The notes under the pieces are model-generated. The model made no database searches. It had not been told where the DNA came from and saw nothing but the letters and a program-made list of their open reading frames with translations. From positions 11,580,694 to 11,644,693 of the forward strand of contig NC_089285.1 in assembly GCF_963678975.1 (NCBI RefSeq): 64,000 nt of DNA, written 5' to 3'. This document shows positions 2,841-61,765 of the stretch, in pieces. The DNA comes from Dysidea avara (Eukaryota; Porifera; Demospongiae; Dictyoceratida; Dysideidae). Each line of letters starts with the position of its first letter. The stretch's first letter is position 1. The position numbers and the translations under genes were made by a program.

Positions 2841-3295
2841 AATACAACAAAAAAAACAACAACTACGTAGCTAAATACAAATAAGCTAAGCCACACAAGT
2901 GAGCAAGCCATAGTTTGGCTCCCACCACAACACAATACTGAGCAAGCAACACGCAGACACAAACTTGATACTGAGAATAAAAAGCATAAACTCACTGTTC
3001 TGTTTTGTCATGGAGGCTTTAAACGCTTCAGAGCGCACTACGTTCCTTCCGAAGAGGCGACTACTACAGAGTGCCGACTACAGTGTAATTACGTTCCGGT
3101 ACATACTAACCCACATACGTACAAATTGTAGCAGTGACGTACGTAATAACTTCCGTACTTTATTGCGTAATTACCAAATACAATTAAAACAGAATTACGG
3201 TACAAACGTGCATAATTACTTCATAATGAAGCCGTTATTACAAATACGAAACGTTAACTTTTTTTTGCAACCTACTGTAGCTGAACTCCTTGCAT

Positions 3296-18055: not shown

Positions 18056-18520
18056 CTTAAAGAGACTTCACGTTTCTAACTTTATTTCTAGCTTTATATA
18101 TCAGAAAATGACCAGAAAAGTGCTGAAAATCTATTTCTAAAAAATCGCTAAAACATAAATTTTCGTCTGCCTGCCAGCCTGCCTGCCTGACCACATTCGC
18201 AAGGCTACAGGCCAAACGAAGCGTTCTGCCAGTTTCATTTTACGTCACAACAATAAACTCACTGGTGGCATGTGCCTTTTGGCCATTTGGTTGGTATACA
18301 GCGACTGTGCTATGCTCTTTCCCTTTATCTTTCATCAAGTACTGGCCTTTCCGTCTTCTTGTGTAATTGGTGATAATTGACGTAACCAGAAATAATTTTA
18401 CAAGAAAAAACGGGAAGTACTGAAACCAAATGTTTTCTCACGTGAACGTAATATATTTGAAAGCTGCTGAAACAGCGAATAATTTGAGTCTTTATACAGA
18501 CTGGTAGTACTCCGGGAAAA
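18056..18520. other. Region without recognisable genes
   Basis: A short CTGCCTGC simple repeat (about 18171-18190) is the only structure noticed. Confidence 0.5.
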
Positions 18521-29460: not shown

Positions 29461-29464
29461 AGCC

Positions 29465-29830
29465 TATACATGGTGGTTTCTTTGTAGCTGAACTCTCTAC
29501 AAAGTGACTTCATCTAGCTGAACTCTCTACAGGGTGATCTTTTTGTAAACTCTCTACAGGGTGATCTTTTTGTAAACTCTCTACAGGGTGATATGTTTGC
29601 AGTTGAACTCTCTACATGATGGTTTCTTTGTAGCTAAACTATCTGCAGGGTGATTTGTTTGTAGCTAAACTCTCTACAGGGTGATTTGTTTGTAGCTGAA
29701 ATCTCTACAGGATGGTTGCTTTGTAGCTGAACTCTCTGCAAGGTGACTTGCTTGTAGCTGAACTGTCTACAATATTAACTGGTTGCTGCTGGACTCCCTA
29801 CAGCATGACTTGCAATGTAATAGAGGAGTA
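29465..29830. repeat. Short ~31-bp minisatellite array, copy C
   Basis: About ten units of the same TAGCTGAACTCTCTACAGGG type as 3296-7740, with two short units (TTTTTGTAAACTCTCTACAG). It runs into the family flank GAGTATCTCGATCTTTCATT at 29876. Confidence 0.9.
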
Positions 29831-37876: not shown

Positions 37877-40525
37877 ATGGCTAGTTCGTCAAAAAAACCC
37901 AGTGTTCTTTCCGCTATTAACTCTATGTCCAGTGATGGCTTAGTGTGACTGTCTAACAGTGTTTACGCACAGTTATTACTTTGGCAATGATGACAGCGAT
38001 GATGACATAAGCGGTGATGAGCTGGACTTCGGTAAAGAAATGTTTGCTGGAATGCCTTAAATGTTTTGAATCACTTACCGCACTGAAACACCTAAGAAGC
38101 GAAAGAAGGTCACAGAACCTGCTAATGGTGACCAGGTCATAGTGCAGATATGAAGCTGGTGAATTAGAATTCAGCGAGCAAGGTAATTGATGTGCTGTAA
38201 TCATACTGTGAAATGTTTAAAATAAAACAATATCATAGGACTGTTTGAAGATTTCGATATTCCTAATTCTCAGTCCAGTGTCATTGATCACTCTTCAAGG
38301 ACTAACAGTGACGACCATGACAATCCTTTGTCTACTAGTAGACATATTCCTGTAAGTCCTGCCAATACTATCCCCAGTTGTGGAGACCAGCAGCAGGTTG
38401 GTGGAGCTCCATTCCAGCAGCAACTCAGTCAACATCAATCCGCTGCCAGCTATTTTAGTTGCCACCCATGTCACCCAACTGTCTCCTCACTGGGTAGCCT
38501 GGATGGAACTGAGTTATCATCTGTGCAGTATGCACATGGCAGTGGTTACTCACCTTGTAATGATTGGCTTGAAAGCAGTCCATCATTTCACTCATTTGGC
38601 AGTCCACTATCACCACTCCAGTTTACTGAGTCACCTCAAACCCTGTCACATGCTGAGTACCCATCAATTACCACTCAACAATCACTGGGTAACTCACCAG
38701 TTGGCCATTCGCTTTCCAGTTCTCCTCAGTCTCTTTCTATCAGTAGAAGTCAGTTATTTGTTAATTCTCACTCACACAACAATGGTCCATTTGGCTCGTT
38801 TGCTGCCAGTTCCTCTGTCTGCATAGGTAGTGTTAGCACACATCAATATACAAGTGGGCCAACTACTCAATCCCCTGTAAATAGTCACTCAGAATTGACC
38901 AGTACTACAGCAAATGTACCTGTCTTCAGCACTCCTACGATTAACACAGCAGATGTACCTGTCTCCAGCACGCCTACCAGGAGGGTAAACGCCATTAGTA
39001 GATGAAGCAATGCCACAGTATCAGTGAGAAGAGAGCCTGAAACTTGTGAAGGTGCACGTTTGACTGAAGAGGAAAAGTGTGCTAAGTTTCTGGATAAAAC
39101 CTGTGGTTACAAGCTGGTAAACAAAAAGAGTCCCTGCAGCTCCCAATTTTCAATGGAGTATATTCTAGATATCCGAGCACAGGCTGCTTTACTGTCACAT
39201 GATCAATTGGACATGGCATTGATGGGTGGCATAATGGCTGGAATGAACAAGAACAAAGACATAACACATGGACAACGCAAAGTTGGCTCGAGACAAAGAA
39301 CTTACACAGAACATTCACACAATGGTTTACCTGTTTGTGTTGTCACTTTTGCATTTCTGCATGGAATTGGACAGAGGTACAGACTATCAGCCATTACGGA
39401 ACACTATGCTGCAAACGGTTTGACTCCCAGAGTGCACAAAAACACAGGACGACTTCCTGCAAATGCAATGACATGATCAACAATTAGCCATTGTCAGGCT
39501 CTTACAGAACTATGCAGAAGAGAACGCAATACTTCTACCCGGTAGAATCCCTGGGTACAAGCGAGGTGATATCAAGTTGTTGCCATCCAGCTGCAGTAAA
39601 AGGGTGAGTATAATAATACTACACAAACCATGCAGCAAGTTACTGTTTGTCTGCGAGACTTGATAAAATTTTTATTATTTTATAGGATTAACAGTGTGCC
39701 AACTGACCTGTGTTGGACATGCCAGACCAATAGTACATTAATAATGAGGGCTGTCAACACGTCTGATGAAGAAAAGTCACAGGTAGTAATAATAGTAGTA
39801 CCATACACTGTTATAAACACAGAAATACATTCTTTACCACATACATTGTTTCTTTTTAGACCACCAAACAAGCGGAAAGCCATCTCAAGATCGTTAAATC
39901 AGAGAGATCACATTATCGTAAAGTATGTGAAAAGAGCAGTGACACTGTAAAGAACTTGTTTCCATCTGGAATTCCTTCACCCGGTGCAAATATTCAACCT
40001 AAGACAAACAAAGGCTGTATCCATTATAGCTTCGACATGGCCCAACAGGTACATACAGTTGTACTTCCCTGTGCAATATTCGGTGACTTTTCCCTATGTA
40101 TGTATGTACATAGATTCACTATCCTAGTGACCCTCTACAACCGGGACCCATTTACTTCTTGACACCAAGAAAGTGTGCCATTTTTGGGGTGTGCTGTGAA
40201 GCTATTCCCTGCCAGGTAAGAATCTGTACATGCAGTATAATATGATTACACTATAACCTTACAATTTACAGCATATTTTCAACACACTATAATATTTCAG
40301 TTAGATGACTGTATTGTGAACAACTTTCAGTATACAGCAGAACAAAATTCACATAAATTTCTCTACAGATCATTTACCTGATTGATGAGGCATCAAATGT
40401 GGGCAAGGGTGGAAATGTCATCATATCTATGCTTCACCACTTCTTAGACCACCACAGCCTTGGGGAAACATTCGTACATTTCCACGTGGATAACTGCACA
40501 GGACAAAACAAAAACATTGTAATGC
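37877..40525 (+). pseudogene. DUF7869-like transposon protein, truncated by the palindrome repeat
   Basis: It starts near MASSSKKPSVLSAINSMSS (37877). Then come acidic exons (GNDDSDDDISGDEL), a long Ser-rich exon (about 38240-39005), EEEKCAKFLDKTCGYKL, CVVTFAFLHGIGQRYRL, then exons 39686-39783 (DLCWTCQTNSTLIMRA), about 39861-40047 (HYSFDMAQQ), 40117-40216 (PSDPLQPGPIYFLTPRKC) and 40369-40525 (HVDNCTGQNKN). Blocks and order match the family I know as DUF7869. The DNCTGQNKN Asp may be part of an RNase-H-like active site (inference). Stops or shifts occur near 37945, 39003 and 39475. Coding similarity stops at about 40525, where the palindromic repeat block begins. Confidence 0.72.
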
Positions 40526-42529: not shown

Positions 42530-43120
42530 AATGAAAAAGCACAATAAATAAAGTTTATTTAGTTGTTCATCACTTCATCAATGACTAGTTGTACTCCAAC
42601 ATGTTGGAAACAGTTCTTTGAACAACTCAACACAATAGTTAAGTGATAGAGTATTTTGCAGTTTATCCAACATGTCGGAATACATAATCTGGAAGTTTTT
42701 AGAATAGTTTGCAACAATTCCAACATGTTGGAAACAAATAAAAAGCCGAATAAATCAAGTTTATTTAGTTGTTCATCTCTTCATCAATGACTAGTTATAC
42801 TCCAACATGTTGGAAACAATCTTAAAAGTTCCTTTCTAATGTTTAACATTATGTAAATGTTTTAAGAATAGTTTGCAAAACTTCCAACACATTATTCTCG
42901 TTTTCCACCTGTGAGCAAAGCTGAAAAGTGCTCTAGAAATGTGTAGAATTTAAAACGTGATGTTTAGCAGTACAAAAGATTGTTTCCAACATGTTGGAAT
43001 ATAACTTGTCATTTCTGAGGTGATATTTAAAAGTATACCAAGCGTACGTTCCACTCTCTTTAATTTCCGACCAGTGGGAAAAGCTGTAAAATGCTCTTGA
43101 AATGTATACAATATACACTG
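42530..43120. repeat. Dispersed palindrome units, inverse orientation
   Basis: Five or more CCAACATGTTGG sites plus CCAACAGGTCGG partners (42510-43060). They sit 3' of gene A on its transcribed strand. Confidence 0.85.
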
Positions 43121-43125
43121 TTTGT

Positions 43126-46100
43126 TCAATGATGAAGTTTTTCGGCAGGAATAGCCGTAAATGATCCAATTTCGATGGGGTGCTTGTAGATGGGGTGCGT
43201 GCTTTCTTCCGGGTCAACATCGGTGACTTGGATTCTCACTTCATTCGGCATAAGCTTTACATTGTGACAGGTGGTTCCGTGGCACACATAGCCTTCTCCG
43301 CTGATTCCGTCGTCCAAAAAAAAGAATACTATATGTATATCATTAACTAATTACAGCAATAGAATGCATAAAGATTGTAATACTTTTCTCGCCATCCTCA
43401 AAGCTTATAATATTATCTGGTGGTTCTGCTGTTCCTTTTTGGCATTTATTTGCTAAAGCAAGTACAGAATCAATAATATTCGATCAAGTGTTAGCAAAGG
43501 TACAATAGTACAATGATGTATCTATACATCCAACAGGTCGGAATATAAACAAAGCTGAAAAATTCAAGTCATAAATTTCTACATAACCTTAGCAATGATT
43601 AGCTACACACGACAATATTTATAGTATTTTCTACTGCACAACAAAGGTCTGAGCATTCCTATAGAATTTTGCAGCATTTCCAACAGGTCGGAAATGAAAT
43701 AAAGCTCAATAAATTCAGTTCTACATCACTTCAGCTTTGACTAGTATACTCCAATGCGTTGGAATGTACACATGTATTCTTACTTGAACTTTGCTGTTCT
43801 GTGTCTTCTATAGGGGGAAAAGCCCAAATGAATTAACTGTACATAGTTACAGACATGCATTGCAATAGTTTATGGATATAAAGCATCCATAAATGATCGC
43901 AATATTTACCTAATTTCCTCTTTGGTCCTGTATAAAACAATTACATACTTAATAGCAGTTGTCTCTCAAACACATTAACATACTTGTTCTTAACTTTTTA
44001 CTCCAAGGTGTTGGCGGCTTCTCTGTAACAAAAAAAGAAGACATTATTACATCGATTCTAACAGTGTGAGTTGGACATAAGACCACTGGTATCAGCACAC
44101 CTCTGCTTGCAACCCAACAATGGGATCTCTATGCATTATGCATCACATAAACAATAAGCATTGAAACATGCAAAGCTGAGGTATCCATTATTGACTGTGG
44201 TCCATACTCCTGCCACAAGGTCCATTAAGCCAGAATATAAAGCATACGTAGTGTTCAAGCACATGATATACCTCATAAAGGTTCAGAAGAGGATGACTGG
44301 ACAGGCAATAAAAATAAGTGAGAGAAGTGTACATGTCACATGGGCATACACATACATATACTTATTTGAATGTGATTCCTAATTACTATAGTTTCACGTT
44401 GCCAGACTCTCCATCGTGGTACATATCAATTAGAAATTATAAGTGCCTACTCTAAAAGAAAGTCTCGTCTATTTCAGCATCACAAGTCATTCTTCACTCG
44501 TTCGAGGTGATCACCTAACAAAAGGGTGATTGGTTATAGAAATTATGGCCAACAACTAGATATTAAACACCACCACTTCCTGGTGTGAAGAATGCTCGAT
44601 ATGTGAAGAGATCAGATCCATTTTGGAATAGGTGTTTATGATAAGTGCCATAACGGAGAAGAAGCGGTCTGGCCATTTGACAGCACACCCAAGCAATAAC
44701 TCACCTTCAGTTATCACAGTATTAACCACAGGAGGAGGTTGACTATGAACAGTAGTGGCAGGCTGCGATGTTAACATGTCCTCAAGTCCTTTAGATGATA
44801 TAAACAGGCAATAAAAATAAGTGAGAGAAGTGTACATGTCACATGGGCATACACATACATATACTTATTTGAATGTGATTCCTAATTACTATAGTTTCAC
44901 GTTGCCAGACTCTCCATCGTGGTACATATCAATTAGAAATTATAAGTGCCTACTCTAAAAGAAAGTCTCGTCTATTTCAGCATCACAAGTCATTCTTCAC
45001 TCGTTCGAGGTGATCACCTAACAAAAGGGCGATTGGTTATAGAAATTATGGCCAACAACTAGATATTAAACACCACCACTTCCTGGTGTGAAGAATGCTC
45101 GATATGTGAAGAGATCAGATCCATTTTGGAATAGGTGTTTATGATAAGTGCCATAACGGAGAAGAAGCGGTCTGGCCATTTGACAGCACACCCAAGCAAT
45201 AACTCACCTTCAGTTATCACAGTATTAACCACAGGAGGAGGTTGACTATGAACAGTAGTGGCAGGCTGCGATGTTAACATGTCCTCAAGTCCTTTAGATG
45301 ATATAAACATGCATAGTACTACCTTGCTACAATGGAGCATAAAAATTTATCAGTTGGAAAAGCCAAACAACTTAACAGATAAAGTTATGTTTGTATCTCG
45401 TAACATTAAAAATTTACTTTCACCATTCTCCTCATTCCCTGATTCTTTAGGTGGTTCTTTAGGTTGTTCTTTAGGTTGTTCTATAAAGTTAAAGATAGCA
45501 ATGTTTGTATCTCGTAACATTAAAAGTTTATCTTGATCATCCTCCTCTGACTGTTCCTCTTTCTTCTGTTTTTCTATATAGTTAAAGATACCTTGATCAT
45601 CCTGCTCTGACTGTTCCTCTTTCTTCTGACCATGTTGTTCTCCTATATAGTTAAAGAATATGGAAAACCACACAATTCGTAACATTAAAAGTTTACCTTG
45701 ATCATCCTGCTCTGACTGTTCCTCTTTCTTCTGACCATGTTGTTCTTCTATATAGTTAAAGAATATGGAAAACCACACAATTCGTAACATTAAAAGTTTA
45801 CTTTGTTCATCTTCCTCTGACTCATGTTGTTCTATACAGTTAAAGAATATGGAAAACCACACAATTCGTAACATTAAAAGTTTACCTTGATCATCCTTCT
45901 CTGACTGTTCCTCTTTCTTCTGACCATGTTCATGTTCCTCTGACTCATGTTGTTCTATACAGTTAAAGAATATGGAAAACCACACAATTCGTAACATTAA
46001 AAGTTTACCTTGATCATCCTGCTCTGACTGTTCCTCTTTCTTCTGACCATGTTGTTCTTCTATATAGTTAAAGAATATGGAAAAGCATAAAATTGTTTCC

Positions 46101-47682
46101 TTCATTACTTTCATCATCCATAAAGTTAAAGATAGCAATGTTTGTAGCAATATATTAACAGGCATCCACCTTACCTTTACGCTTCTCTTCTTCAAATACC
46201 ACTGTCCAAAACAAAAAGAACCAGTAAAAAGTAGCTACAAATATATGACAGGGCATGCGAAAATGGGGCATATGGGCATAAACTGCTTCATCAATGACTA
46301 GTTGTACTCCAACATGTTGGAAACAGTTCTTTGAACAACTCAGCACAATAGTTAAGTGATAGAGTATTTTGCAGTTTATCCAACAGGTCGGAATACATAA
46401 TCTGGAAGTTTTTAGAATAGTTTGCAACAATTCCAACATGTTGGAAACAAATAAAAAGCACATTAAATAAAGCATCCCGTTGCTTATGTCCCATGTTACC
46501 TGTGTTACTTTTCTTACCACCTTCCGTAACCTACTGTAACCTCCCATAACAAAGTTAACACAGCTAACAAAGGTAACCGCGAGGTGACATTGATAACAAA
46601 TGTAAATGACATAACAGAAGTAACATATAAGTCAGGACAAATTTTACACGCAATTTTTACGTGCCTTACCCCCAGGGAACTTGTGCACATTTATCCCTGG
46701 GTTGTCGCTTCTGTATACAACTATATAAAAGAAATAAAACAATAAAAGTAGATGATCATCTATAGACATACGTGGCAAAATCAAATTTGGCCCGTGCTGG
46801 CTCGCATAGTGAAGGCCAAAACTCTTGCCTCCCTTTAGGTGTTTGTTCTATATATACAGAAAATGTGAATCATTAATGACAGGTTTAATTGTGAGCTTAC
46901 TTCAACAGGGCACTGCACTGTTAGTGCTGGCCGGTTTTTGTGAGCATCATAAAGGCTCCTTAGGTGTTTCAAACCAATCTTGGGAAAGAGCTAATATTAG
47001 GTAACTAGAGTAAATAAATTTATTTACCTTCTTAGGAGGCTCAGACTTTGGAGCAGTTAGTGTCTAGAGATATTGTCATCAAGGATATGTAGTACAGTGA
47101 GCCCATACTAATTTGAAAAGTTGTTGCTCAGAATAGCTGTCGTTTATAAGCGCCTCTCCGACCACACCCAAATAAGTAAAAATATAGCAGTAACCAGTCT
47201 GTAATAGTTTTGAAGAAACAGCAAAGCATGATTGTTTTCTTGTGCAAAACTGGGTCGATTGGGTCTGAGCAACAACTGAATTCTAACCACATTGGGCCTA
47301 ACTCACAGCGATGATAGAAGTGTTCTCCTTCTGCTGCTCTCTGCAACAACCAATGAATATGATGACAACATGATACATTGATCTCTAAATGACGCTTACT
47401 CTAGGTTTTGAATTCGTTGTTGAAGTTCCTAAATGAAAAAAAAGTGGATTTTACTGAACAGTCACCCTAGAGATATCACTCACCCTAACTATCTTGGTCA
47501 GCTAAAAAACAAAAAAAAACATAACACATGAAAATTTCCAACATGTGGGGAAAATACAACATGTCGGAAAATACAACATGTCGGAAAATCCAACATGTCG
47601 GAAAATCCAACATATCGGAAAAGCACACATGGCAACAAGTGGGAAAAAAACTCACCTCTTCGAGCTTCTTCTTAGAGGCCAT
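43126..47682 (-). CDS. Gene A, left copy: coiled coil, acidic microexon tail, HGTTCHN module
   Basis: It starts ATG 47682 (MASKKKLEE). Exons 47656-47682, 47484-47501, 47400-47428 and 47307-47340 encode a short coiled coil (LTKIVR, ELQQRIQNLE, EQQKENTSIIA). Exons 47028-47063, 46901-46978, 46772-46847 and 46670-46720 encode a conserved-looking middle (LKHLRSLYDAHKNRPALTV, LKGGKSFGLHYASQHGPN, YRSDNPGINVHKFPG). Next come 46175-46201, the acidic microexons (46059-45418), two duplicated exons ending at 45208 and 44705, several very small exons near 44010, 43930, 43810 and 43450-43500, and the last exon ending at stop 43126 with GEGYVCHGTTCHNVKLMPNE. From 46670 on every junction is phase 1. I found no disabling change except one altered splice donor. 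No family is recognised. Divergent partner of gene B. Confidence 0.65.
44302..45309. repeat. 503-bp tandem duplication containing a gene A exon
   Basis: Two copies with an offset of 503 bp that differ at hardly any base (for example AGGGTG versus AGGGCG). Each includes an 84-nt phase-1 exon (GLEDMLTSQPATTVHSQ ...) on the minus strand at 44705-44788 and 45208-45291, so the protein would contain the segment twice. Confidence 0.95.
45418..46059 (-). repeat. Tandem array of phase-1 microexons
   Basis: Exon-like units at 46009-46059, 45886-45954, 45802-45831, 45697-45747, 45592-45642, 45532-45573 and 45418-45480. The standard unit is 51 nt (EEQHGQKKEEQSEQDDQ) followed by a 54-nt intron starting GTAAACTTTTAATGTTACGA and ending CTATATAG. 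All lengths are multiples of three and all phases are 1, so units can be added, lost, skipped or retained without a frame change. One intron has shrunk to 18 nt, and one donor has changed from GT to AT. Confidence 0.85.
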
Positions 47683-47855
47683 TGTCGCTTTGATTTAAAT
47701 TCCAAGCGTATCCGTTGTCAACGCCCTGATGAGTTATGTCATCACGTGATGTGTCACCTGTTGGTCGTTGGGGTGTTCCGTGTCACCTGGTCAATGTCGT
47801 GTTCGTGTTCGGTGTCACCTGGTCAATGTCGTGTTCGTGTACAACTGTTTCGGTG
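47683..47855. promoter_or_regulatory. Shared 173-bp bidirectional promoter, left copy
   Basis: It separates the start codons of gene A (47682, minus) and gene B (47856, plus). It contains a perfect palindrome CATCACGTGATG (a CACGTG E-box) and two tandem copies of TGTCACCTGGTCAATGTCGT plus GTTCGTG. No clear TATA box. The same segment, inverted, lies at 57238-57410. Confidence 0.7.
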
Positions 47856-49624
47856 ATGTCCACAACAAAGGTACACTAAAGTACTAAGGAAGTAGATACT
47901 AATTGTGTGAAATATGGCGTCATTTTTTAGTCGTCAAGGAAGTGTGTTGATGAACATACTGGTTCTCCTGATCATAGACCGTCCAAGAAATCAAAGTAAG
48001 AGAGTGACAATACAGAGGTTTATTGTATTCTAATTGATGCACATCAATGTGTTTTGTATTCCATTATCCATGCTACCACAAACACTCCACTTGAAGTTAA
48101 TAAATTTACAGGCACAGACTTTACCACTGCATTTGTTTACAATTGTGTTGTGTGTCTATTACAGAAGAGATGGTGATAATGAAGAGGATATTGAAATTCT
48201 GGATTTGTCCCATTTAGTCAACGATTATTATTTCAGCATAGCCGTTAAGAATCTTGTTCCACGTGCTTTTTTTAAGACACAGAGTTATATGTCAGTGCTT
48301 GATTCTATGGTGGTAGGTCGTAGTGTTGCACCGATATCCAAATTAGCCGATTATTCCGATAACCGATATTAAGCAACAGAATTAGCCGATACCGATAACC
48401 GATCCGATGTACACCAATAACACTAACACTCATCATTATTAAATGGCTCATATTAGTGACATAACCATTGATATACAGCTCATTCTAGGCTAAAATGTAA
48501 AGTTAGATGTATACCACAAGTAAAAGTTACTCATGGTAAACAGGTTTTAAGTACATTTTACTACTGCTATATACAGTTGAGACAAGTGGCTGGTACTACA
48601 TAGAAACCTAAAAACCTCAATTTATTGTTGGGCATGGCCTAAACCCTGACAGTTTATTATGGGCATGGCTTGTAGTCACCGCTAAACCATTCACACATAA
48701 CTTAATTAAAATGCCAAATAACTTATGTCTAGCCTCCCCCACATCATTATACTACACAGCACAGTGGAGATTAACATCGGCCTTGATTTAATCAAAACCG
48801 ATTAATCGGCTAGTAACCAATATCGGCCCGATACCGATTATTGAACCGATTATCGGTGCAACACTAGTAGGTCGTACCTGCATAACTGGACCTAAAGGTG
48901 TCGGCAAGACCATGTGTTTATTAGCACTTCTGTGCAAGCTGAGGGAACAAGGTTTTGAACCAGTTTTTATAACCTCTCATTCATTTGAGAGTGAGGAAAT
49001 AACATTAAACTATCTTCAGGAAGTGGCAAAGAATATTGGCTTTGAAAAACGTCTGGATTCCACTTTTCCATTGTGTTATTGGTTATCTTGTTTGATAAAT
49101 TTCACAAACCCCAGCCGCAAACCTGTATTGTTATTGGATTTTGATAAGCTTAATGATTCCAGTATTCTTTTTCACATGGCTGCAGCTGCCCGTTGTTGTC
49201 GTGATAACACAGTGTTGGCAGTATCTAGTGGAGACTGTGTGGTAAAAAACCAATCTTTTAAATCTCTTTTCCAGTATTTTCGTGTATTGAACTATTTACC
49301 TTTCACAGAGAGAGAAGCTAGTTATTTCATCAAATATCATAAAATTGGATTTACTGCAGATGAACTAAGACCTGTAACCGGGTGTAATCCATTATTACTG
49401 GCACTGGCTTCTAACGCTACCAATTTACCTGGTGTTATTCAACAAGTAGATGGCTATATTAAATCATATATAGAAGAAAATCTAATATGTGGTTCATTGC
49501 CCGTACAGTTTCTGAATTCGTTGAAACGTTGTGAAGAATATTTCTGGATGGCGTTCATCAACGACACCCTTCAAACTCATGATGATATAGTAGACTTTAA
49601 TTCTTCGTGGGTTGGATTGCACAA
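47856..49624 (+). pseudogene. Gene B, left copy: NTPase part only, hAT insertion, 3' truncation
   Basis: Exons 47856-47870 (MSTTK), 47931-47995 and 48165 onward match the intact minus-strand copy at 55372-57237. A 546-bp hAT element is inserted at 48321-48866, just before the Walker A segment (GPKGVGKT, about 48893). Beyond it the NTPase region is well preserved (LLLDFDKLN as Walker B-like segment). Similarity to the intact copy ends at about 49624 (WVGLH). The endonuclease-like domain is replaced by unrelated sequence ending at a stop near 49832. The break coincides with the edge of another inverted duplication. It presumably makes no full-length enzyme. Confidence 0.88.
48321..48866. mobile_element. 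546-bp hAT-type element inside gene B
   Basis: Ends TAGTGTTGCACCGATATCC and ATCGGTGCAACACTA are inverted. 8-bp duplication GTAGGTCG (48313-48320, 48867-48874). The uninterrupted target is seen in the intact copy (GGAGGTCG, one base different). ACCGATAA/TTATCGG motifs fill the arms. No coding capacity. Confidence 0.95.
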
Positions 49625-49745
49625 GGTTTTATATATGATTTATAACCCTGTAGAATTGGACAAGACTCCTGGGATGAGTCCATCCATCTGCAGCATCTCA
49701 TTGCAACACTACTTCTTGCCATTGCATCACATCAAATTCAACTCT

Positions 49746-49956
49746 GGAAGTGAGAATCCAAGTCGGAATCAGCGGAGAAGGCTATGTGTGCCACGGAACC
49801 ACCTGTCACAATGTAAAGCTTATGCCGAATGAAGTGAGAATCCAAGTCACCGATGTTGACCCGGAAGAAAGCACGCACCCCATCTACAAGCACCCCATCG
49901 AAATTGGATCATTTACGGCTATTCCTGCCGAAAAACTTCTTCGTTGAACAACCAGT
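49746..49956 (+). other. Inserted single HGTTCHN module
   Basis: A 211-bp block encoding GISGEGYVCHGTTCHN ... GSFTAIPAEKL. Its coding part is essentially identical to the last exon of gene A at 43130-43305, but it lies in the opposite orientation. The inverted counterpart of this locus at 62580-62870 lacks it (CAACTCT joins GCAACTCATT directly). It begins with a copy of GTGAGAATCCAAGTC taken from its own interior. Confidence 0.8.
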
Positions 49957-50079
49957 GCAACTCATTGCGTCATAATCTCCTCCACCCTGCAAAAATAAAT
50001 AAATAAACTGCATCATCAATCTTCTCTCTGCAACTCTGCAACTCTAAAAAGAAGGGAATCCTCCCTTTTACTTTTTTTG

Positions 50080-52500
50080 TTACAGATATGTACTTTTTGT
50101 TATCCAAAGTGCTACTGCTGTTACATTTCTTGCTATTGTTACAGCTGTTACGTCTGTTAGCTCTGTAACCCTTGTGTACAATTTAGTAGATTGGAAATTT
50201 TTTTGGAAGGTCTTTCTCCAACATGTTGGAAAAAGTCCTAAAAGCTCCTTTCTAATGCTTAACATAATCTGAAAGTTTTAAGAATAGTTTGCAACAATTC
50301 CAACAGGTCGGAAACAAATGAAAAAGCACAATAAATAAAGTTTATTTAGTTGTTCATATCTGTTTCCAACATGTTGGAGTATAACTAGTCATTGATGAAG
50401 TGATGAACAACTACTTTTTATTTGTTTCCGACCTGTTGGAATTATTGCAAACTATTCTTAAAATATTAACATTATGTTAATCATTAGAAAGGAGATTTTA
50501 AGATTGTTTCCAACATGTTGGAGTATAATTAATCATTGATGAAGAGATGAACAACTAAATAAACTTTATATATTATGTTTTTTATTTGTTTCCAACATGT
50601 TGGAATTGTTGCAAACTATTTTAAAAACTTCCAGATTATGTATTCCGACCTGTTGGATAAACTGCAAAATACTCTATCACATAACTATTGTGTTGAGTTG
50701 TTCAAAGAACTGTTTCCAACATGTTGGAGTATAACTAGTCATTGATGAAGTGATGAACAACTACTTTTTATTTGTTTCCGACCTGTTGGAATTATTGCAA
50801 ACTATTCTTAAAACATTAACATTATGTTAATCATTAGAAAGGAGATTTTAAGATTGTTTCCAACATGTTGGAGTATAACTAATCATTGATGAAGAAATGA
50901 ACAACTAAATAACTTTATATATTATGTTTTTTATTTGTTTCCAACATGTTGGAATTGTTGCAAACTATTTTAAAAACTTCCAGATTATGTATTCCGACCT
51001 GTTGGATAAACTGCAAAATACTCTATCACATAACTATTGTGTTGAGTTGTTCAAAGAACTGTTTCCAACATGTTGGAGTATAACTAGTCATTGATGAAGT
51101 GATGAACAACTACTTTTTATTTGTTTCCGACCTGTTGGAATTATTGCAAACTATTCTTAAAACATTAACATTATGTTAATCATTAGAAAGGAGATTTTAA
51201 GATTGTTTCCAACATGTTGGAGTATAACTAATCATTGATGAAGAGATGAACAACTAAATAACTTTATATATTATGTTTTTTATTTGTTTCCAACATGTTG
51301 GAATTGTTGCAAACTATTTTAAAAACTTCCAGATTATGTATTCCGACCTGTTGGATAAACTGCAAAATACTCTATCACATAACTATTGTGTTGAGTTGTT
51401 CAAAGAACTGTTTCCAACATGTTGGAGTATAACTAGTCATTGATGAAGTGATGAACAACTACTTTTTATTTGTTTCCGACCTGTTGGAATTATTGCAAAC
51501 TATGTTGGTTTTGCAGTTTATCCAAAAGGTTGGAATACATAATCTGGAACAATTCCAACATGTTGGAAACAAATAAAAAGCACATTAAATAAAGTTTATT
51601 TAGTTGTTCATCACTTCATCAATGACTAGTTATACTCAAACATGTTGGAAACAATCTTAAAAGCTCCTTTCTATTGCTCAACATAATGTAAATGTTTTAA
51701 GAATAGTTTGCAACTATTCCAACAGGTCGGAAACAAATGAATAAATAGTTGCACTCCAACATGTTGGAAACAGTTCTTTGAACAACGCAACACAATAGTT
51801 ATGTGATAGAGTATTTTGCCGTTTATCTAACAGGTCGGAATACAAGTAACGCTAAGACATACTTTCCTTAGTAAGTATTAGTTAAACTCCAACATGTTGG
51901 ATGACTAGTTATACTCCAACATGTTGGAAAGAATCTTTTACGGTAAACTTAATGCAAGTAGATTTGTTGCTTACTACAATAACTCCTTCATTGAACAATT
52001 AAATAAACTTTATTTATTGTGCTTTTTCATTTTTTCCGACCTGTTGGAATTGTTGCAAACTATTCTAAAGATATTCAGACTTTTATTTATTGTGTTAAGC
52101 ATTAGAAAGGAGCTTTTATGACTGTTTCCAACATGTTGGAGTATAACTAATCAGTGATGAAGAGATGAACAGCTAAATAAACTTTATTTATTGTGCTTTT
52201 TATTTGTTTCCGACCTGTTGGAATTATTGCAAACTATTCTTAAAACATATACATTATGTTCAGCATTAGAAAGGAGCTTTTAGGTCTGTTTCCAACATGT
52301 TGGAGTATAACTAGTCATTGTTAAAGTGATAAAGCACTGAATAAACTTTATTTATTGAGCTTAACTTCATTTCCGACATGTTGGATGTTGTTTTAAATTC
52401 TTTTAAAATGCTAAGAGATTGAAATATTATGTTAAGCAAGTTTATTTATTTGTTCATCAATGACTAGTTACTGTATACTCCAACATGTTGCATAGATACA
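50080..52500. repeat. Tandem array II of two-palindrome units
   Basis: Higher-order tandem block. A ~350-bp compound unit (offset about 347-349) repeats from about 50350 to 51490, with palindrome pairs TTTCCAACATGTTGGAGTAT and TTTCCGACCTGTTGGAATTA, followed by inverted and single units to 52500. Constant inter-palindrome text includes AACTAGTCATTGATGAAG, AAATAAACTTTATTTATT and TTGCAAACTATTCTTAAAA. Confidence 0.93.
51933..51993 (-). pseudogene. 60-bp patch of the endonuclease domain
   Basis: The text TACGGTAAACTTAATGCAAG ... TAGATTTGTTG ... ACTACAATAACTCCTTCATTG matches gene B at about 55805-55863, including the codons for NEGVIVVTNKS. It is isolated inside the palindrome array. Confidence 0.75.
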
Positions 52501-52525
52501 ATAACACTTGATCGAATATTATAGA

Positions 52526-52790
52526 TTCTTTACTTGCTTTAGTGAACAAACAAACGAAAGGACTGCAAGATCAGACATTTTTTCGTAATGGAGACAGAGG
52601 TATTGCAATCTTTATGTATTCTATTGCTGTGATTAGTTACTTATAGTGAAGTTTGCGTGGGATGGAGTTAGTGGCAGTGGTGTCATTTTCCATGGCACCA
52701 CTTGCCATAATAATGAGATCGGCACAATGATGAAGTCAGAATACAAGTGACGGCAGTGACACCAACAGATAACCTCCACCCCAAATGTTT
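52526..52790 (+). pseudogene. Gene A terminal exon pieces, broken
   Basis: An exon-like DSLLALVNKQTKGLQDQTFF (52526-52600) is followed after an intron by KFAWDGVSGSGVIFHGTTCHN (about 52651-52725). A two-base insertion (GGCACAATGATG against GGCAATGATG at 61398) shifts the frame. The module is cut at CACCCCAAATG, where a palindrome unit begins. Confidence 0.65.
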
Positions 52791-53800
52791 CCAACATGTT
52801 GGAGTATAACTAGTCATTGATGAAGAGATGAACAACTAAATAAACTTTATTTATTGTGCTTTTTATTTGTTTCCAACATGTTGGAACTGTTGCAAACTAT
52901 TCTAAAAACTTCCAGATTATGTATTCCAACCTGTTGTTGGATATACTGCACAAGAATACTCTATCACTTAACTATTGTGTTGAGTTGTTCAAAGAACTGT
53001 TTCCAACATGTTGGAGTACAACTAGTCATTGATGAAGTGATGAACAACTACATAAACTTTATTTATTGTGCTTTTTATTTGTTTCCGACCTGTTGGAATT
53101 ATTGCAAACTATTCTTAAAATTACAGAACAAAAGTACAGAACAAAAACACAGAAATATTAAGAGAGTTTTATTTTACTATATAAAAGGTCTTCAGTGGAT
53201 AATACAGCGTAGGATATGCCATTTCTATTAGCATCAGCTTCTATGTGTGAACCGAGACATGAGATAGTTGTTTCAGTTGATATATAAACATAATACACAT
53301 GATGGTAATCTCGGGCTGCTTTACTTTTGTAGTAATCGTGAAGGGACTTGCAATCGGATGTTAACTCTGGATATTTGTTATTATTATGATTATCTGCAAA
53401 TAAATCACCGATTTTCTTTTTATGAGCATCATATGAGGATATCGATACTTGAAAATAAACAAGGCAAATAATTCCTTGATCCTGGACAAATAAGCCAACG
53501 GCATCAATAACGGGATGATACATCTCAAGACGATATAATACATTCTCCTTCAAATTATCTTTATTTCGAGGCATTTTTTGAACCTGGTTTACGGTAATCT
53601 TAATGCTAGTAGATTTGTTGGTTACTACAATAACTCCTTCATTGGCATGTTGAAAAAACAATTCTTCCGCCATCAAGCCCTTGACTTGGGGATAAACAGT
53701 GATGTCAATATCTCCTTTATTAACCAAATCCCGTAAATCTGCTTGTAATATTCCTGGCAGTCTAGGAAAATTAAGTTTAATTACATTATGCTCCAAATAA
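52618..53800. repeat. Segmental duplication, partner of 54806-56010
   Basis: Near-identical direct copies offset by about 2.2 kb. They comprise a broken HGTTCHN module, two palindrome units and the endonuclease-domain part of gene B. Confidence 0.88.
53158..53796 (-). pseudogene. Extra copy of the gene B endonuclease-like domain
   Basis: An open frame of 212 codons covers the last part of gene B (EHNVIKLNFPRLPGILQADL to LLYSKIKLS). It is nearly identical to 55372-56010, with two or three residue changes (ITV/FTV, NGIS/NGVS). At its 5' side it begins inside CATTATGCTCCAAATAAC, next to a palindrome unit. There is no NTPase part, start exon or promoter. Confidence 0.8.
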
Positions 53801-54153
53801 CAAACTTTATTTAGTTGTTCATCTCTTCATCAATGACTAGTTATACCCCAACATGTTGGAAACAGTCCTAAAAGCTCCTTTCTAATGCTTAACACAATAA
53901 ATGAAGGTCTGAATGTCTTTAGAATAGTTTGCAACAATTCCAACAGATCGGAAACAAATAGAAAACACAATATATAAAGTTTATTTAGTTGTTCATCTCT
54001 TCATCAATGACTAGTTATACTCCAAAATGTTGGAAACAATCTTAAAATCATTTTTGTTTTAACTGCCAATGCTGCCTGTACAAAATCACTCTGTTTACTA
54101 TAGGGTTTTTAAACAGACACAGCACAAAAGTACAGAACAAAAACACAGAAATA

Positions 54154-54575
54154 TTAAGAGAGTTTCATTTTACTATATAAAAGGTCTTCAGTGGATAATA
54201 CAGCGTAGGATATGCCATTTCTATTAGCATCAGCTTCTATGTGTGAACCGAGACATGAGATAGTTGTTTCAGTTGATATATAAACATAATACACATTATG
54301 GTAAACTTGGGCTGCTTTACTTTTGTAGTAATTGTGAAGGGACCTGCAATCGGATGTTAACTCTGGATATTTGTTATTATTATGATTATCTGCAAATAAA
54401 TCACCGATTTTCGTTTTATGAGCATCATATGAGGATATCAATACTTGAAAATAAACAAGGCAAATAATTCCTCGATCCTGGACAAATAAGCCAACGGCAT
54501 CAATAACGGGATGATACATCTCAAGACGATATAATACATTCTCCTTCAAATTATCTTCATTTCGAGGCATTTTTT
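54154..54575 (-). pseudogene. Second extra copy of the endonuclease-like domain
   Basis: Covers NQVQKMPRNEDNLKEN to the same LLYSKMKLS end, shorter at the 5' side than 53158-53796. Several residue changes (DRGI, VLISS, RSLHNYY, QVYHNVYY) make it the most diverged of the three. Palindrome units border it on both sides. Confidence 0.78.
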
Positions 54576-55371
54576 GAACCTGGTTTCTAAAAACTTCCAG
54601 ATTATTTATTCCATCCTGTTGGATAAACTGCAAAATACTCTATCACTCAAAGAAATATTTCCAACATGTTGGAGTACAACTAGTCATTGATGAAGTGATG
54701 AACAACTACATAAACTTTATTTATTTTCCTTTTTATATTTTTCCGACATGTTGGAATTATTGCAAACTATTCTTAAAACATGTACATTATGTTGAGCATT
54801 AGTATTCTATTGCTGTGATTAGTTACTTATAGTGAAGTTTGCGTGGGATGGAGTTAGTGGCAGTGGTGTCATTTTCCATGGCACCACTTGCCATAATAAT
54901 GAGATCGGCACAATGATGAAGTCAGAATACAAGTGACGGCAGTGACACCAACAGATAACCTCCACCCCAAATGTTTCCAACATGTTGGAGTATAACTAGT
55001 CATTGATGAAGAGATGAACAACTAAATAAAGTTTATTTAGTTGTTCATCTCTTCATCAATGACTAGTTATATGTGCTTTTTATTTGTTTCCAACATGTTG
55101 GAACTGTTGCAAACTATTCTAAAAACTTCCAGATTATGTATTCCGACCTGTTGTTGGATAAACTGCAAAATACTCTATCACTTAACTATTGTGTTGAGTT
55201 GTTCAAAGAACTGTTTCCAACATGTTGGAGTACAACTAGTCATTGATGAAGTGATGAACAACTACATAAACTTTATTTATTGTGCTTTTTATTTGTTTCC
55301 GACCTGTTGGAATTATTGCAAACTATTCTTAAAATTACAGAACAAAAGTACAGAACAAAAACACAGAAATA

Positions 55372-57237
55372 TTAAGAGAGTTTTATTTTACTATATAAAA
55401 GGTCTTCAGTGGATAATACAGCGTAGGATACGCCATTTCTATTAGCATCAGCTTCTATGTGTGAACCGAGACATGAGATAGTTGTTTCAGTTGATATATA
55501 AACATAATACACATGATGGTAATCTCGGGCTGCTTTACTTTTGTAGTAATCGTGAAGGGACTTGCAATCGGATGTTAACTCTGGATATTTGTTATTATTA
55601 TGATTATCTGCAAATAAATCACCGATTTTCTTTTTATGAGCATCATATGAGGATATCGATACTTGAAAATAAACAAGGCAAATAATTCCTTGATCCTGGA
55701 CAAATAAGCCAACGGCATCAATAACGGGATGATACATCTCAAGACGATATAATACATTCTCCTTCAAATTATCTTTATTTCGAGGCATTTTTTGAACCTG
55801 GTTTACGGTAAACTTAATGCTAGTAGATTTGTTGGTTACTACAATAACTCCTTCATTGGCATGTTGAAAAAACAATTCTTCCGCCATCAAGCCCTTGACT
55901 TGGGGATAAACAGTGATGTCAATATCTCCTTTATTAACCAAATCCCGTAAATCTGCTTGTAATATTCCTGGCAGTCTAGGAAAATTAAGTTTAATTACAT
56001 TATGCTCCAAATAACAAACTCTGTGCAATCCAACCCACGAAGAATTAAAGTCTACTATATCATCATGAGTTTGAAGGGTGTCGTTGATGAACGCCATCCA
56101 GAAATATTCTTCACAACGTTTCAACGAATTCAGAAACTGTACGGGCAATGAACCACATATTAGATTTTCTTCTATATATGATTTAATATAGCCATCTACT
56201 TGTTGAATAACACCAGGTAAATTGGTAGCGTTAGAAGCCAGTGCCAGTAATAATGGATTACACCCGGTTACAGGTCTTAGTTCATCTGCAGTAAATCCAA
56301 TTTTATGATATTTGATGAAATAACTAGCTTCTCTCTCTGTGAAAGGTAAATAGTTCAATACACGAAAATACTGGAAAAGAGATTTAAAAGATTGGTTTTT
56401 TACCACACAGTCTCCACTAGATACTGCCAACACTGTGTTATCACGACAACAACGGGCAGCTGCAGCCATGTGAAAAAGAATACTGGAATCATTAAGCTTA
56501 TCAAAATCCAATAACAATACAGGTTTGCGGCTGGGGTTTGTGAAATTTATCAAACAAGATAACCAATAACACAATGGAAAAGTGGAATCCAGACGTTTTT
56601 CAAAGCCAATATTCTTTGCCACTTCCTGAAGATAGTTTAATGTTATTTCCTCACTCTCAAATGAATGAGAGGTTATAAAAACTGGTTCAAAACCTTGTTC
56701 CCTCAGCTTGCACAGAAGTGCTAATAAACACATGGTCTTGCCGACACCTTTAGGTCCAGTTATGCAGGTACGACCTCCCACCATAGAATCAAGCACTGAC
56801 ATATAACTCTGTGTCTTAAAAAAAGCACGTGGAACAAGATTCTTAACGGCTATGCTGAAATAATAATCGTTGACTAAATGGGACAAATCCAGAATTTCAA
56901 TATCCTCTTCATTATCACCATCTCTTCTGTAATAGACACACAACACACAATTGTAAACAAATGCAGTGGTAAAGTCTGTGCCTGTAAATTTATTAACTTC
57001 AAGTGGAGTGTTTGTGGTAGCATGGATAATGGAATACAAAACACATTGATGTGCATCAATTAGAATACAATAAACCTCTGTATTGTCACTCTCTTACTTT
57101 GATTTCTTGGACGGTCTATGATCAGGAGAACCAGTATGTTCATCAACACACTTCCTTAACGACTAAAAAATGACGCCATATTTCACACAATTAGTATCTA
57201 CTTCCTTAGTACTTTAGTGTACCTTTGTTGTGGACAT
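55372..57237 (-). CDS. Gene B, intact: P-loop NTPase fused to REase-like domain (CR-REase-like)
   Basis: Exons 57223-57237 (MSTTK), 57098-57162 and 55372-56926 give 544 residues. The first intron is phase 0 and the second phase 2. Residues 1-40 are basic/acidic, with no signal peptide. The NTPase has Walker A GPKGVGKT (about 84-91), a Walker B-like VLLLDFDK (about 162-169), and then a helical region (TGCNPLLLALASN). The C-terminal ~180 residues have AEELFF, HPVIDAV (about 426-432) and LVYFQVSIS (about 445-453), the E...ID...xQx(S/T) pattern of restriction-endonuclease-fold nucleases. This NTPase-REase order is typical of Crinkler/CR-REase proteins described by Aravind's group (recollection). 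Metal-dependent DNA cleavage is inference. No disabling change seen. Confidence 0.82.
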
Positions 57238-57410
57238 CACCGAAACAGTTGTACACGAACACGACATTGACCAGGTGACACCGAACACGAACACGACATT
57301 GACCAGGTGACACGGAACACCCCAACGACCAACAGGTGACACATCACGTGATGACATAACTCATCAGGGCGTTGACAACGGATACGCTTGGAATTTAAAT
57401 CAAAGCGACA
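57238..57410. promoter_or_regulatory. Shared 173-bp bidirectional promoter, right copy
   Basis: Inverted and essentially identical to 47683-47855, with the same CATCACGTGATG palindrome and two tandem ~27-bp repeats, between the gene B start (57237) and gene A start (57411). Confidence 0.7.
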
Positions 57411-59465
57411 ATGGCCTCTAAGAAGAAGCTCGAAGAGGTGAGTTTTTTTCCCACTTGTTGCCATGTGTGCTTTTCCGATATGTTGGATTTTCCGACATGT
57501 TGTATTTTTCCCACATGTTGGAAATTTTCATGTGTTATGTTTTTTTTTGTTTTTTAGCTGACCAAGATAGTTAGGGTGAGTGATATCTCTAGGGTGACTG
57601 TTCAGTAAAATCCACTTTTTTTTCATTTAGGAACTTCAACAACGAATTCAAAACCTAGAGTAAGCGTCATTTAGAGATCAATGTATCATGTTGTCATCAT
57701 ATTCATTGGTTGTTGCAGAGAGCAGCAGAAGGAGAACACTTCTATCATCGCTGTGAGTTAGGCCCAATGTGGTTAGAATTCAGTTGTTGCTCAGACCCAA
57801 TCGACCCAGTTTTGCACAAGAAAACAATCATGCTTTGCTGTTTCTTCAAAACTATACGTGTTTGTTACAGACTGGTTACTGCTATATTTTTACTTATTTG
57901 GGTGTGGTCGGAGAGGCGCTTATAAACGACAGCTATTCTGAGCAACAACTTTTCAAATTAGTATGGGCTCACTGTACTACATATCCTTGATGACAATATC
58001 GCTAGACACTAACTGCTCCAAAGTCTGAGCCTCCTAAGAAGGTAAATAAATTTATTTACTCTAGTTACCTAATATTAGCTCTTTCCCAAGACTGATTTGA
58101 AACACCTAAGGAGCCTTTATGATGCTCACAAAAACCGGCCAGCACTAACAGTGCAGTGCCCTAATTGTTTTATACAGGAGTGAAAAGAACAGCTGCAGGT
58201 AAATATTGCGATCATTCATGGATGCTTTATATCCATAAACAATTGCAATGCATGTCTGTAATTATATACTAACTGATTGGGCTTTTCCCCCTATAATAGA
58301 TGCAGATCTCTCGTCAAGTTCATCAAGTAAGAATACAAGTGTACATTCCAACGCATTGGAGTATAACTAGTCATTTCTTAAACTGAGCTTTACTTCATTT
58401 CCAACTACATAAACTTTATTTATTGTGCTTTTTATTTGTTTCCGACCTGTTGGAATTATTGCAAACAATTCTTAACATTGTTAAGCATTAGAAAGGAGCT
58501 TTTAGGACTGTTTCCAACATGTTGGAGTATAACTATTCATTGTTAAAGTGATAAAGTACTGAGTAAACTTCATTTATTGAGCTTTACTTCATTTCCGACA
58601 TGTTGGATGTTATTTAAAATTCTCTTTACTTCATTTCCGACATGTTGGATGTTCTTTAAAATTTTTTTACACTTATCCAACATGTTGGAGTTTAACTAAT
58701 ACTCACTAAGGAACGTATGACTTAGCATTACTTACAAAATACTCTATCACTTAACTATTGTGTTGAGTTGTTCAAAGAACTGTTTCCAACATGTTGGAGT
58801 ATAACTGGTCATTGATGCTTATTTATTGTGCCGACCTGTTGCATAAACTGCAAAATCCTGTGTGAATGTATAGATGCATCATTGTACTATTGTACCATTG
58901 CTAACACTTGATCGAATATTATAGGTTCCAGAGGAGAAGGAAAAGGTAACACAGGAGAAGGAAAAAAAGGTATTGCAATCTTTATGCATTCTATTGTTAA
59001 GTAATCTTTGTGTGGAACGTTGATTGTAGAAATTTATGACTTGCTTTATTTAAATTCCGACCTGTTGGATAAACTGCAAAATCCTACATCATTGTACTAT
59101 TGTATTGAATATTATAGATTCTGTACTTGCTTTAGAGAAAAAACAACGAAAAGCAGTATATGCAGATGACTTTAAGGAAGGCCAGCAAGGTATGGCAATC
59201 TTGTATTCTATTGCTGTGATTAGTTAATGATAGTGATCTTCAATTGGGATGAAATTAGTGGCGTAGGGATCGTGTGCCACGGCACTACGTTACACAACGC
59301 CAACTCAGTCCAGAAGAAATCAGATTGGAAGTCTTAGATGTGGATCCCATCGAGAACACTCACCCTATATATAACACTACAATTGAAGTGGGATCATTCA
59401 CAGCAATGCCATATAACAAATTACATCCTTACTATGTGCTGCAAACTTTGTCAGAAATGAAATAA
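57411..59465 (+). pseudogene. Gene A, right copy: deleted and frameshifted
   Basis: It starts ATG 57411, with the same coiled-coil exons (57411-57437 and following) and LKHLRSLYDAHKNRPALTV (about 58093-58150). Directly after CAGTGCCCT the sequence jumps to the intron AATTGTTTTATACAG that precedes a late small exon in the left copy. About 3 kb is therefore missing, including the middle region and all microexons. Later exons persist: VKRTAA, ADLSSSSSS (about 58302), EKEK-type, DSVLALEKKQRKAVYADDF (59118-59190) and a last module with WDEISGVGIVCHGTTLHN (59240 onward). That module carries a one-base frameshift near 59300 before LSPEEIRLEVLDVDPIENTH. A neighbouring piece at 58150-58175 has lost its donor. 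Confidence 0.75.
58370..58870. repeat. Palindrome units inside gene A right copy
   Basis: Six CCAACATGTTGG or CCGACATGTTGG sites in introns between the Ser-rich exon and the DSVLAL exon. Two neighbouring ones (58594, 58633) are within 40 bp of each other. Confidence 0.85.
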
Positions 59466-59479
59466 ACCATAATATATGT

Positions 59480-60680
59480 AGGATTATAGTTTACTCCAAC
59501 ATGTTGGAAGATAGCAGTAGAAATGAGCTTTTAGGACTACCTGTCGGAATTAGTGCAAACTATTCTTAAAGCATTTACATTATGTTCAGCATTAGAAAAG
59601 AGCTTTTAGCACTGTTTCCAACATGTTGGAGTATAACTAGTCATTGATGAAGAGATGAACAGCTAAATAAACTTTATTTATTGTGCTTTTTTATTTGTTT
59701 CCGACATGTTGGAATTGTTGCAAACTATTCTAAAAACTTCCAGATCAACGGTCGGAATACATAATCTTGCTAAAAGCTCCTTTCTAATGCTTAACATAAT
59801 TGCAACAATTCCAACATGTCGGAAACAAATAAAAAGCCCAATAAATAAAGTTTACTTAGTTGTTCATCTCTTCATCAATGACTAGTTATACTCCAACATG
59901 TTGGAAACAATCTTAAAAGTTCCTTTCTAATGCTGAACATAATGTAATTTTAAGAATACTTTGCAAAAATTCCAACAGGTTGGAAACAAATAAATAGCAC
60001 AATAAGAAACTTCATTTTCATCACCTTGATTCTTTTGGGCCCAGTTAGTTGATAAACATGATATCGGTAGCTTAATTTCAATACAATATTTGTGCTTCGG
60101 ATGCACACAGTCCTGGCTTATGTCCTTAATAAGAACATAGAGTTCTTCATCTGGCACAATTCTTGTTTCGGCATTATTGTGCCCTTTCCGGTTGTTCCAC
60201 ATGGTAGGTTGAAATTAACTATAACTAACTATTAACTATTATCTTCATCAATGACTAGTTATACTCCAACACGTTGGAAACAATGTTAAAAGCTCCTTTC
60301 TAATGCTCAACATAATGTACATGTTTTAAGAATAGTTTGCAATAATTCCAACATGTCGGGAAAATATAAAAAGGAAAATAAATAAAGTTTACGTAGTTGT
60401 TCATCACTTCATCAATGACTAGTTGTACTCCAACATGTTGGAAATATTTCTTTTAGTGATAGAGTATTATGCAGTTTATCCAACAGGATGGAATAAATAA
60501 TCTGGAAGTTTTTAGAATAGTTTGCATCTAATGCTCAACATAATGTAAATGTTTTAAGAATAGTTTGCAATAATTCCAACATGTCGGAAACAAATGAAAA
60601 AGTACAATAAATAAAGTTTATGTAGTTGTTCATCACTTCATCAATGACTAGTTGTACTCCAACATGTTACAGCAGTAGCT
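59480..60680. repeat. Palindrome units, mixed orientation
   Basis: Ten or more CCAACATGTTGG / CCAACATGTCGG sites in both orientations between the gene A right copy and the large inverted repeat. Spacing is irregular and some units are truncated. Confidence 0.85.
59990..60202 (-). other. Diverged HGTTCHN-like exon
   Basis: On the minus strand it encodes KGHNNAETRIVPDEELYVLI then DCVHPKHKYCIEIKLPIS. Spacing parallels the module (HN ... E-hydrophobic pattern ... HPxYxxxIE), but the HGTT part is lost. Probably a decayed or outlying member. Confidence 0.4.
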
Positions 60681-61327: not shown

Positions 61328-61525
61328 TTATAGTGAAGTTTGCGTGGGATCAGTGGTGTCATTTTCCATGGCACCACTTGCCATAATAATGAGATCGGCA
61401 ATGATGAAGTCAGAATACAAGTGACGGCAGTGACACCAACAGATAACCTCCACCCCAAATATAAAGTGTGTATTGAGGAAGGCTCGTTTACTGCATTTCC
61501 AGTGAACAAAATATTCAGTCACTAG
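61328..61525 (+). pseudogene. HGTTCHN module copy in the inverted-repeat spacer
   Basis: Encodes SGVIFHGTTCHNNEIGNDEV, then HPKYKVCIEEGSFTAFPVNK, and stops after IFSH (61525). The body is intact. An 11-base deletion near 61352, relative to 52660 and 54850, affects the exon start. Confidence 0.7.
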
Positions 61526-61559
61526 TGTCATTGTTTTTATATCAAGAGTTAAGACACAA

Positions 61560-61765
61560 TTTTTTAAATTTGTTAAAACAAAGCCACTTGCAGTACAAGA
61601 CGCTTCTAAATGTATTACTTTCAATCAAGCAACCCTAACTGTTGATGTATTATATCGTCTAAGGGCGTATCACCCTGTTATCGATGTTGTTGGCTTGTTT
61701 TCGCAAGACGGATGCAACTAAACATAGTATAAGCTATGGTGTATTATCAGAATCCTCAGATTTAT
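61560..61765 (+). pseudogene. Endonuclease-domain fragment of a gene B relative
   Basis: DVLYRLRAYHPVIDVVGLFS (about 61641-61700) corresponds to the HPVIDAV core of gene B, but with clear residue divergence. It then jumps to SISYGVLSESSDLYKY, equivalent to the extreme C-terminus of gene B. About 90 residues between are missing. Its 3' part is duplicated, inverted, in the left arm. Confidence 0.7.

Follow-up and report, generated by a model that had tools for sequence, protein, structure and literature searches.

A decaying inverted duplication of a divergent gene pair in a sponge genome, with exon-limited divergence of one of the two genes

The window analysed here, a stretch of 64,000 nucleotides from the sponge Dysidea avara (contig C14:11580694-11644693; the genome searched comprises 550.8 Mb in 108 contigs), contains two inverted copies of a divergent gene pair whose members are designated A and B. 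In the left arm the start codons of gene A (47682, minus strand) and gene B (47856, plus strand) face apart, as do those of gene B (57237, minus strand) and gene A (57411, plus strand) in the right arm. Both intervals measure exactly 173 bp and are alike at 173 of 173 aligned positions. Hence, a sequence-only reading of this DNA which had described two inverted copies with start codons 173 bp apart and an essentially identical segment in between is confirmed on all three points. The features of the cluster, in positions of the window, are as follows:

43129..47682, minus strand: left gene A; predicted 5' exons 47682-47656, 47503-47486, 47428-47400, 47342-47309, 47063-47028 and 46990-46901 (frames and splice-like borders set by hand); middle exons (46.9-44.0 kb) predicted only and uncertain; last five exons at 44.02-43.13 kb in one frame which ends in the HGTTCHN domain
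47683..47855: left intergenic segment, common 5' region of A and B, 173/173 to the right copy
47856..49637, plus strand: pseudogenic left copy of gene B, with a MITE inside exon 3 (the P-loop exon) and the C-terminal REase-like part lost after 49637
48321..48866: MITE, hAT-like, with terminal inverted repeat (TIR) TAGTGTTGCACCGAT and target site duplication (TSD) GTAGGTCG; missing from the right arm
49764..49957, plus strand: inverted copy of the last gene A exon just behind the shortened left gene B, 98% identical to 43116-43309
52502..52790, plus strand: fragments of 3' exons from gene A; the stretch 52616-52853 recurs without change at 54802-55039
53158..53826, minus strand: gene B C-terminal (REase-like) fragment, 98% identical to gene B at the amino acid level
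54154..54639, minus strand: gene B C-terminal fragment, 89-92% identical to gene B at the amino acid level
55372..57237, minus strand: right gene B, 544 aa; exons 57237-57223, 57162-57098 and 56926-55372; P-loop GPKGVGKT, REase-like block HPVIDAVG...YFQVS
57238..57410: right intergenic segment, 173/173 to the left copy
57411..59463, plus strand: right gene A, pseudogene; arm homology breaks inside exon 6, 1-nt frameshift in the last exon
59927..60214, minus strand: diverged A-domain-like fragment (profile E 0.0018)
61337..61718, plus strand: A-domain exon (61346-61525) followed head-to-tail by a gene B C-terminal fragment (61506-61718)

The arms constitute a local inverted duplication in which 46907-48322 matches 58162-56769 with 96.4% identity and a second block, 48869-49637, matches 56776-56008 with 99.35% identity. 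A search of the sponge's own genome with the 921 bp around the interval, which passes over very common words, returns, besides the two arms themselves, no more than three short matches (37, 76 and 76 bp). Gaps aside, the noncoding sequence of the arms differs at 2 of 531 bases on the A side and at none of 227 bases on the B side. Since noncoding arm sequence elsewhere is thus nearly identical too, constraint cannot be deduced simply from the perfect match of the 173-bp segments. Constraint on a shared promoter would nevertheless fit the identical segment as well, a point which we count against the explanation preferred below.

The lesions differ between the arms. Left gene B is interrupted by 546 bp of inserted sequence bounded by terminal inverted repeats and flanked by a duplication of 8 bp, the MITE listed above, which we take to be hAT-like from its TIR/TSD pattern. 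In the right gene A homology to the left arm is lost at 58162 within predicted exon 6 and resumes at left position 43943, indicating a deletion, while the 1-nt frameshift in its last exon is our own reading of the alignment. Because left gene B and right gene A carry these lesions, at best one gene A (left) and one gene B (right) remain. The earlier view that each arm retains one good gene therefore holds in the restricted form that at most one per arm appears good, the middle exons of left gene A being only predicted. With the arms included, the window contains more than two copies: pieces of the A domain are present at 43.1, 49.8, 52.6, 54.8, 59.2, 60.2 and 61.3 kb, and pieces of gene B at 48.8-49.8, 53.2-53.8, 54.2-54.6, 55.4-57.1 and 61.5-61.7 kb.

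The predicted 5' exons of gene A encode a coiled-coil-like start (MASKKKLEE...). Its last five exons show consistent splice phases in two paralogues and end at the same stop, and they encode a C-terminal domain of about 65 residues which reads roughly xFxWDGISGxGVxxHxxxCHGxxxxxxEVRIxxTxVxP...HP...ExGSFxAIP. No Pfam family matches this domain above any cut-off, and an AlphaFold2 model calculated with two sequences (pLDDT 54.6) is too poor for a fold search. The middle of the gene contains a 503-bp duplication and a tandem array whose units, each about 105 bp long, resemble an exon plus an intron. These units build up a 294-aa open frame at 45350-46234, each of them looking, by eye, like a short acidic exon and a 54-bp stop-free intron, so that splicing and retention alike would preserve this frame.

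To assess how gene A changes, we compared the left copy with a 3' copy at C14:12.01 Mb, about 390 kb away, over 951 aligned bases. This paralogue is 3'-only, cut off upstream and located beside TE-like sequence, but all five of its exons can be read through to the stop used by left gene A. With strict splicing, the five exons harbour 22 nonsynonymous differences in 273.8 sites (8.0%) and 2 synonymous differences in 71.2 sites, as against 4 differences in 544 intron bases (0.7%) of the same pair; one 6-nt in-frame gap is present in addition. Nonsynonymous change exceeds that of the introns with a Fisher P of 7.0e-8 and that of introns and synonymous sites together with 1.7e-7, whereas the comparison of synonymous with nonsynonymous sites alone is not significant (P 0.10). 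If exon borders are drawn generously, 26 of 402 exon bases differ compared with 2 of the 549 others (Fisher 1.6e-8); when the exon mask is shifted circularly, a count as high as the observed one arises in 7 of 951 positions. The divergence of gene A from this paralogue is hence limited to exons and mostly nonsynonymous. Measured against introns as yardstick and in one paralogue pair, it points to diversifying selection on the 3' exons, as a confinement of change to exons would be hard to obtain by neutral decay alone. Gene conversion from cDNA was set aside as cause, since synonymous differences would then be expected too and only 2 are seen. When the two arms are compared over the 5' part of gene A, differences are not concentrated in exons (2 differences in 228 exon bases, both in exon 6, against 2 in 531; Fisher 0.59), so that the exon-limited pattern is demonstrated for the 3' exons of the one pair alone.

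Concerning gene B, the model put forward earlier holds as a predicted reading frame: removal of two GT-AG introns, 60 and 171 nt long, yields 544 aa devoid of an internal stop. MASFFSR, considered as an alternative start, was set aside in favour of the ATG at 47856. Counts of nonsynonymous and synonymous differences amount to 11/0 between gene B and the 54-kb copy, 4/3 between gene B and the 53-kb copy, 10/0 between these two copies and 4/1 between the arms. These counts are mixed and do not establish selection on gene B.

Pfam yields only weak P-loop matches for gene B, the best of which (nSTAND3, E 6.8e-5, 23.1 bits) stays under Pfam's cut-off of 27.2. The first 91 aa of the predicted spliced protein have no Pfam match and no recognised header domain, a result compatible with an unknown header. 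At the C-terminus an H-P-x-[IV]-D block (HPxIDxVG) precedes a strand ending in Q-[VI]-S (QVS). Among the five outside loci which cover this REase-like block, the Gln is retained in five and the Asp in four. In the closest paralogue, on contig C8 (36% identity), the presumed catalytic Asp is replaced by Asn and the P-loop segment is out of frame with the rest. The C-terminal block fits the CR-REase motif. In searches of Pfam, PADLOC, NCBIfam and the PDB no profile places gene B in a nuclease family: its Pfam matches up to E 1 include no described CR member family, e.g. RHSP or Crinkler; PADLOC returns nothing, NCBIfam only weak ATPase-type matches and the PDB nothing up to E 1 for gene B itself. 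Three PDB matches obtained with an alignment of B sequences (E 0.5-1.2) were regarded as chance. A single-sequence AlphaFold2 model (pLDDT 33) is too poor to reveal an REase fold. The earlier designation of gene B as NTPase-REase-like appears sound as far as the P-loop and the C-terminal REase-like block are concerned, but no profile library confirms a family membership. Both predicted proteins, A and B, contain basic, NLS-like stretches.

By its predicted architecture gene B resembles the Crinkler/RHS-type (CR) proteins. CR NTPase-REase proteins combine a P-loop NTPase with a C-terminal REase and occur in multiple copies near mobile DNA (Zhang et al. 2016, in the account given by PMC5289972). 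Gene B appears to share this order of a P-loop NTPase and a C-terminal REase-like block and likewise belongs to a multi-copy family near mobile DNA; it differs in that it has no recognised header domain and no CR profile match and lies here beside a multi-exon neighbour. In PMC11342252, Medea1 of Tribolium is described as CR-NTPase8 plus CR-REase7 and thus as a CR-type killer element in an animal, the CR-REase7/CifB clade as carrying a His three residues after the catalytic position, and Wolbachia CifB as typically containing four REase units, with CifA upstream of CifB. Like Medea1, gene B has an NTPase-REase-like architecture in an animal genome and might behave selfishly, yet this likeness is drawn from description at the level of architecture. 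With the catalytic position assigned by eye, gene B does not have the His which in this clade follows the catalytic Glu at a distance of three residues; it reads QVSISSYDAH, with the conserved His nine residues after the Gln. With CifA/CifB the cluster has in common two neighbouring genes one of which bears an REase-like domain, but A and B point away from each other and their pairing is not conserved.

The absence of a conserved pair follows from the distribution of both families in the genome. Counting the cluster once, the gene B family has at least nine loci, several of them fragments, and the A-domain family at least eight, some partial. Other B genes are 22-36% identical to gene B, and right gene B, like three of its paralogues (353-570 aa), retains a long open frame; three weak B-family loci (C14:12.40, C2 and C4) have E values of 5.8e-5 to 2.4e-4, a stop being present in two of them. 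Contig C14, which accounts for 15.0 of the 550.8 Mb, bears six of the nine B-family and four of the eight A-domain loci with the cluster counted once, figures which are lower bounds and include duplicates that are not independent. At C11:20.94-20.96 Mb (L045, L046) a caspase ORF (Pfam E 4e-15) and a Death-domain ORF (E 8e-8) are found no more than about 10 kb from an A-domain exon.

Profile searches with E up to 10 detected the A domain near none of six outside B-family loci (75.0 kb) and gene B near none of seven outside A-family loci (77.0 kb). The former search covered six of the eight outside B loci, C14:13.30 and C4:42.57 Mb being left out, and in the latter four A loci (L049, L054-L056) had only 3.5-5 kb of flank; the profiles did recover the window copies, part of which had themselves gone into profile construction. 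The proposal of a linked two-gene module thus finds no support in this genome (0/6 B loci with A, 0/7 A loci with B), and B homologues lacking a neighbouring A domain, which the sequence-only reading had itself named as counter-evidence, occur in the same genome at all six B loci covered. From these counts the A-B module does not appear to be a stable unit here, although A and B may have been paired recently on this lineage, given that identity between gene B and its relatives does not exceed 22-36% and that six of the eight outside B loci were covered.

The reading we prefer, to which we concede slightly less than an even chance, is that of a eukaryotic gene pair transcribed outward from the 173-bp segment, duplicated as a local inverted repeat and now decaying. 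Gene B would act inside the cell, its PD-(D/E)xK-like nuclease being controlled by the P-loop module through the binding or hydrolysis of NTP; the target would be foreign or mobile nucleic acid, unless the protein serves as a toxin. For gene A we envisage a probably nuclear coiled-coil protein which seems to change unusually fast, in the manner of immune or selfish genes, driven by an arms race or a role in recognition. Taken separately, a conflict role is likely for gene B by analogy, given its architecture and the Medea1/CifB precedent, and likely for gene A in view of its exon-limited change. The adjacency of A and B would most likely be incidental or recent, in which case the two need not work together; their joint action is possible but unsupported. 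As this is so and gene B does not possess the His of the Medea1/CifB clade, we rate the pairing as mostly a local accident and the evolution of gene A as the lead.

Among the alternatives, the one which fares best, unlikely as we consider it, is a defence pair in which B restricts the nucleic acid of transposons or viruses, with A as its fast-evolving sensor or adaptor. It would accommodate the exon-limited change in A, the small multi-locus families with broken copies and the caspase and Death-domain ORFs at the C11 locus; on the other hand, A and B are not linked outside the cluster (0/6, 0/7), nothing ties either of them to a sensed molecule and PADLOC gives no match. Somewhat less probable still is a selfish toxin-antidote pair, Medea1-like or CifA/B-like, with B as nuclease poison and A as antidote under one promoter. 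Medea1, which kills beetle embryos, is of the CR-type NTPase-REase architecture, and elements of this kind may have given rise to the REases of CifB (PMC11342252). The identical 173 bp common to A and B and the exon-limited change in A would suit this scheme as well, as would the basic, NLS-like stretches in both predicted proteins. It is opposed by the 0/6 and 0/7 cross-linkage counts, by the lacking CR-REase7/CifB His (by eye) and by the fact that one arm keeps A alone and the other B alone. As to the earlier suggestion of a selfish or defence cassette, there is a precedent for the architecture in Medea1 (PMC11342252) and the exon change of A fits conflict, but neither demonstrates a cassette.

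We give no more credit than to the toxin-antidote pair to the assumption that the whole cluster is transposon cargo or debris of mobile genes devoid of current function. The many shortened A and B pieces within 20 kb, the dispersed repeats, the MITE and the location of the gene A paralogue beside TE-like sequence would agree with it; long open frames in right gene B and three paralogues (353-570 aa) and the exon-limited nonsynonymous change in A, hard to obtain by neutral decay, would not. A misjoined second haplotype mimicking an inverted copy would account for the high identity of the arms, but is very improbable given the different lesions of the arms, their inversion within one contig and the further diverged copies alongside.

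What lends the locus its interest is the Medea1 precedent, which illustrates that among animals, too, selfish killing can be the work of a CR-type NTPase-REase (PMC11342252). Here nine B-type loci, several of them fragments, reside in an early-branching animal, and the neighbour of one of them is a gene in which exon divergence is about ten times that of the introns; together they would be a candidate for genetic conflict or non-self recognition. In the most far-reaching version, a 173-bp bidirectional promoter would drive both an NTPase-gated nuclease and a fast-diversifying nuclear partner, forming a toxin-antidote or self-recognition locus of an animal, the exons of the partner being under diversifying selection as in recognition genes; this we hold to be more doubtful than any of the functional alternatives above. 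Our literature search found no paper treating Crinkler together with Porifera, nor one treating Crinkler, REase, NTPase and sponge together.

Several repeats were observed in addition. The palindrome TTTCCAACATGTTGGAA and its variants give 160 loose matches in the window, overlapping forms counted, all of them at 40.7-63.1 kb (40693-63065). The genome contains 37 exact strand matches, 16 of them in the window, compared with none for a reversed control. Outside the window the palindrome is found at L021, L023, L029, L030, L050 and L053, at L050 inside an otherwise different repeat; it had been considered as a recognition site of gene B, which was set aside as it also occurs in unrelated repeats. 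TE-like coding sequence, containing HYSFDMAQQVH in both cases by eye, is present near the gene A paralogue (L021, 8880-10000) and near the cluster (window 39860-40162). Finally, three tandem-repeat arrays of one common repeat family extend over 3276-7725, 16335-18066 and 29464-29813 of the window.
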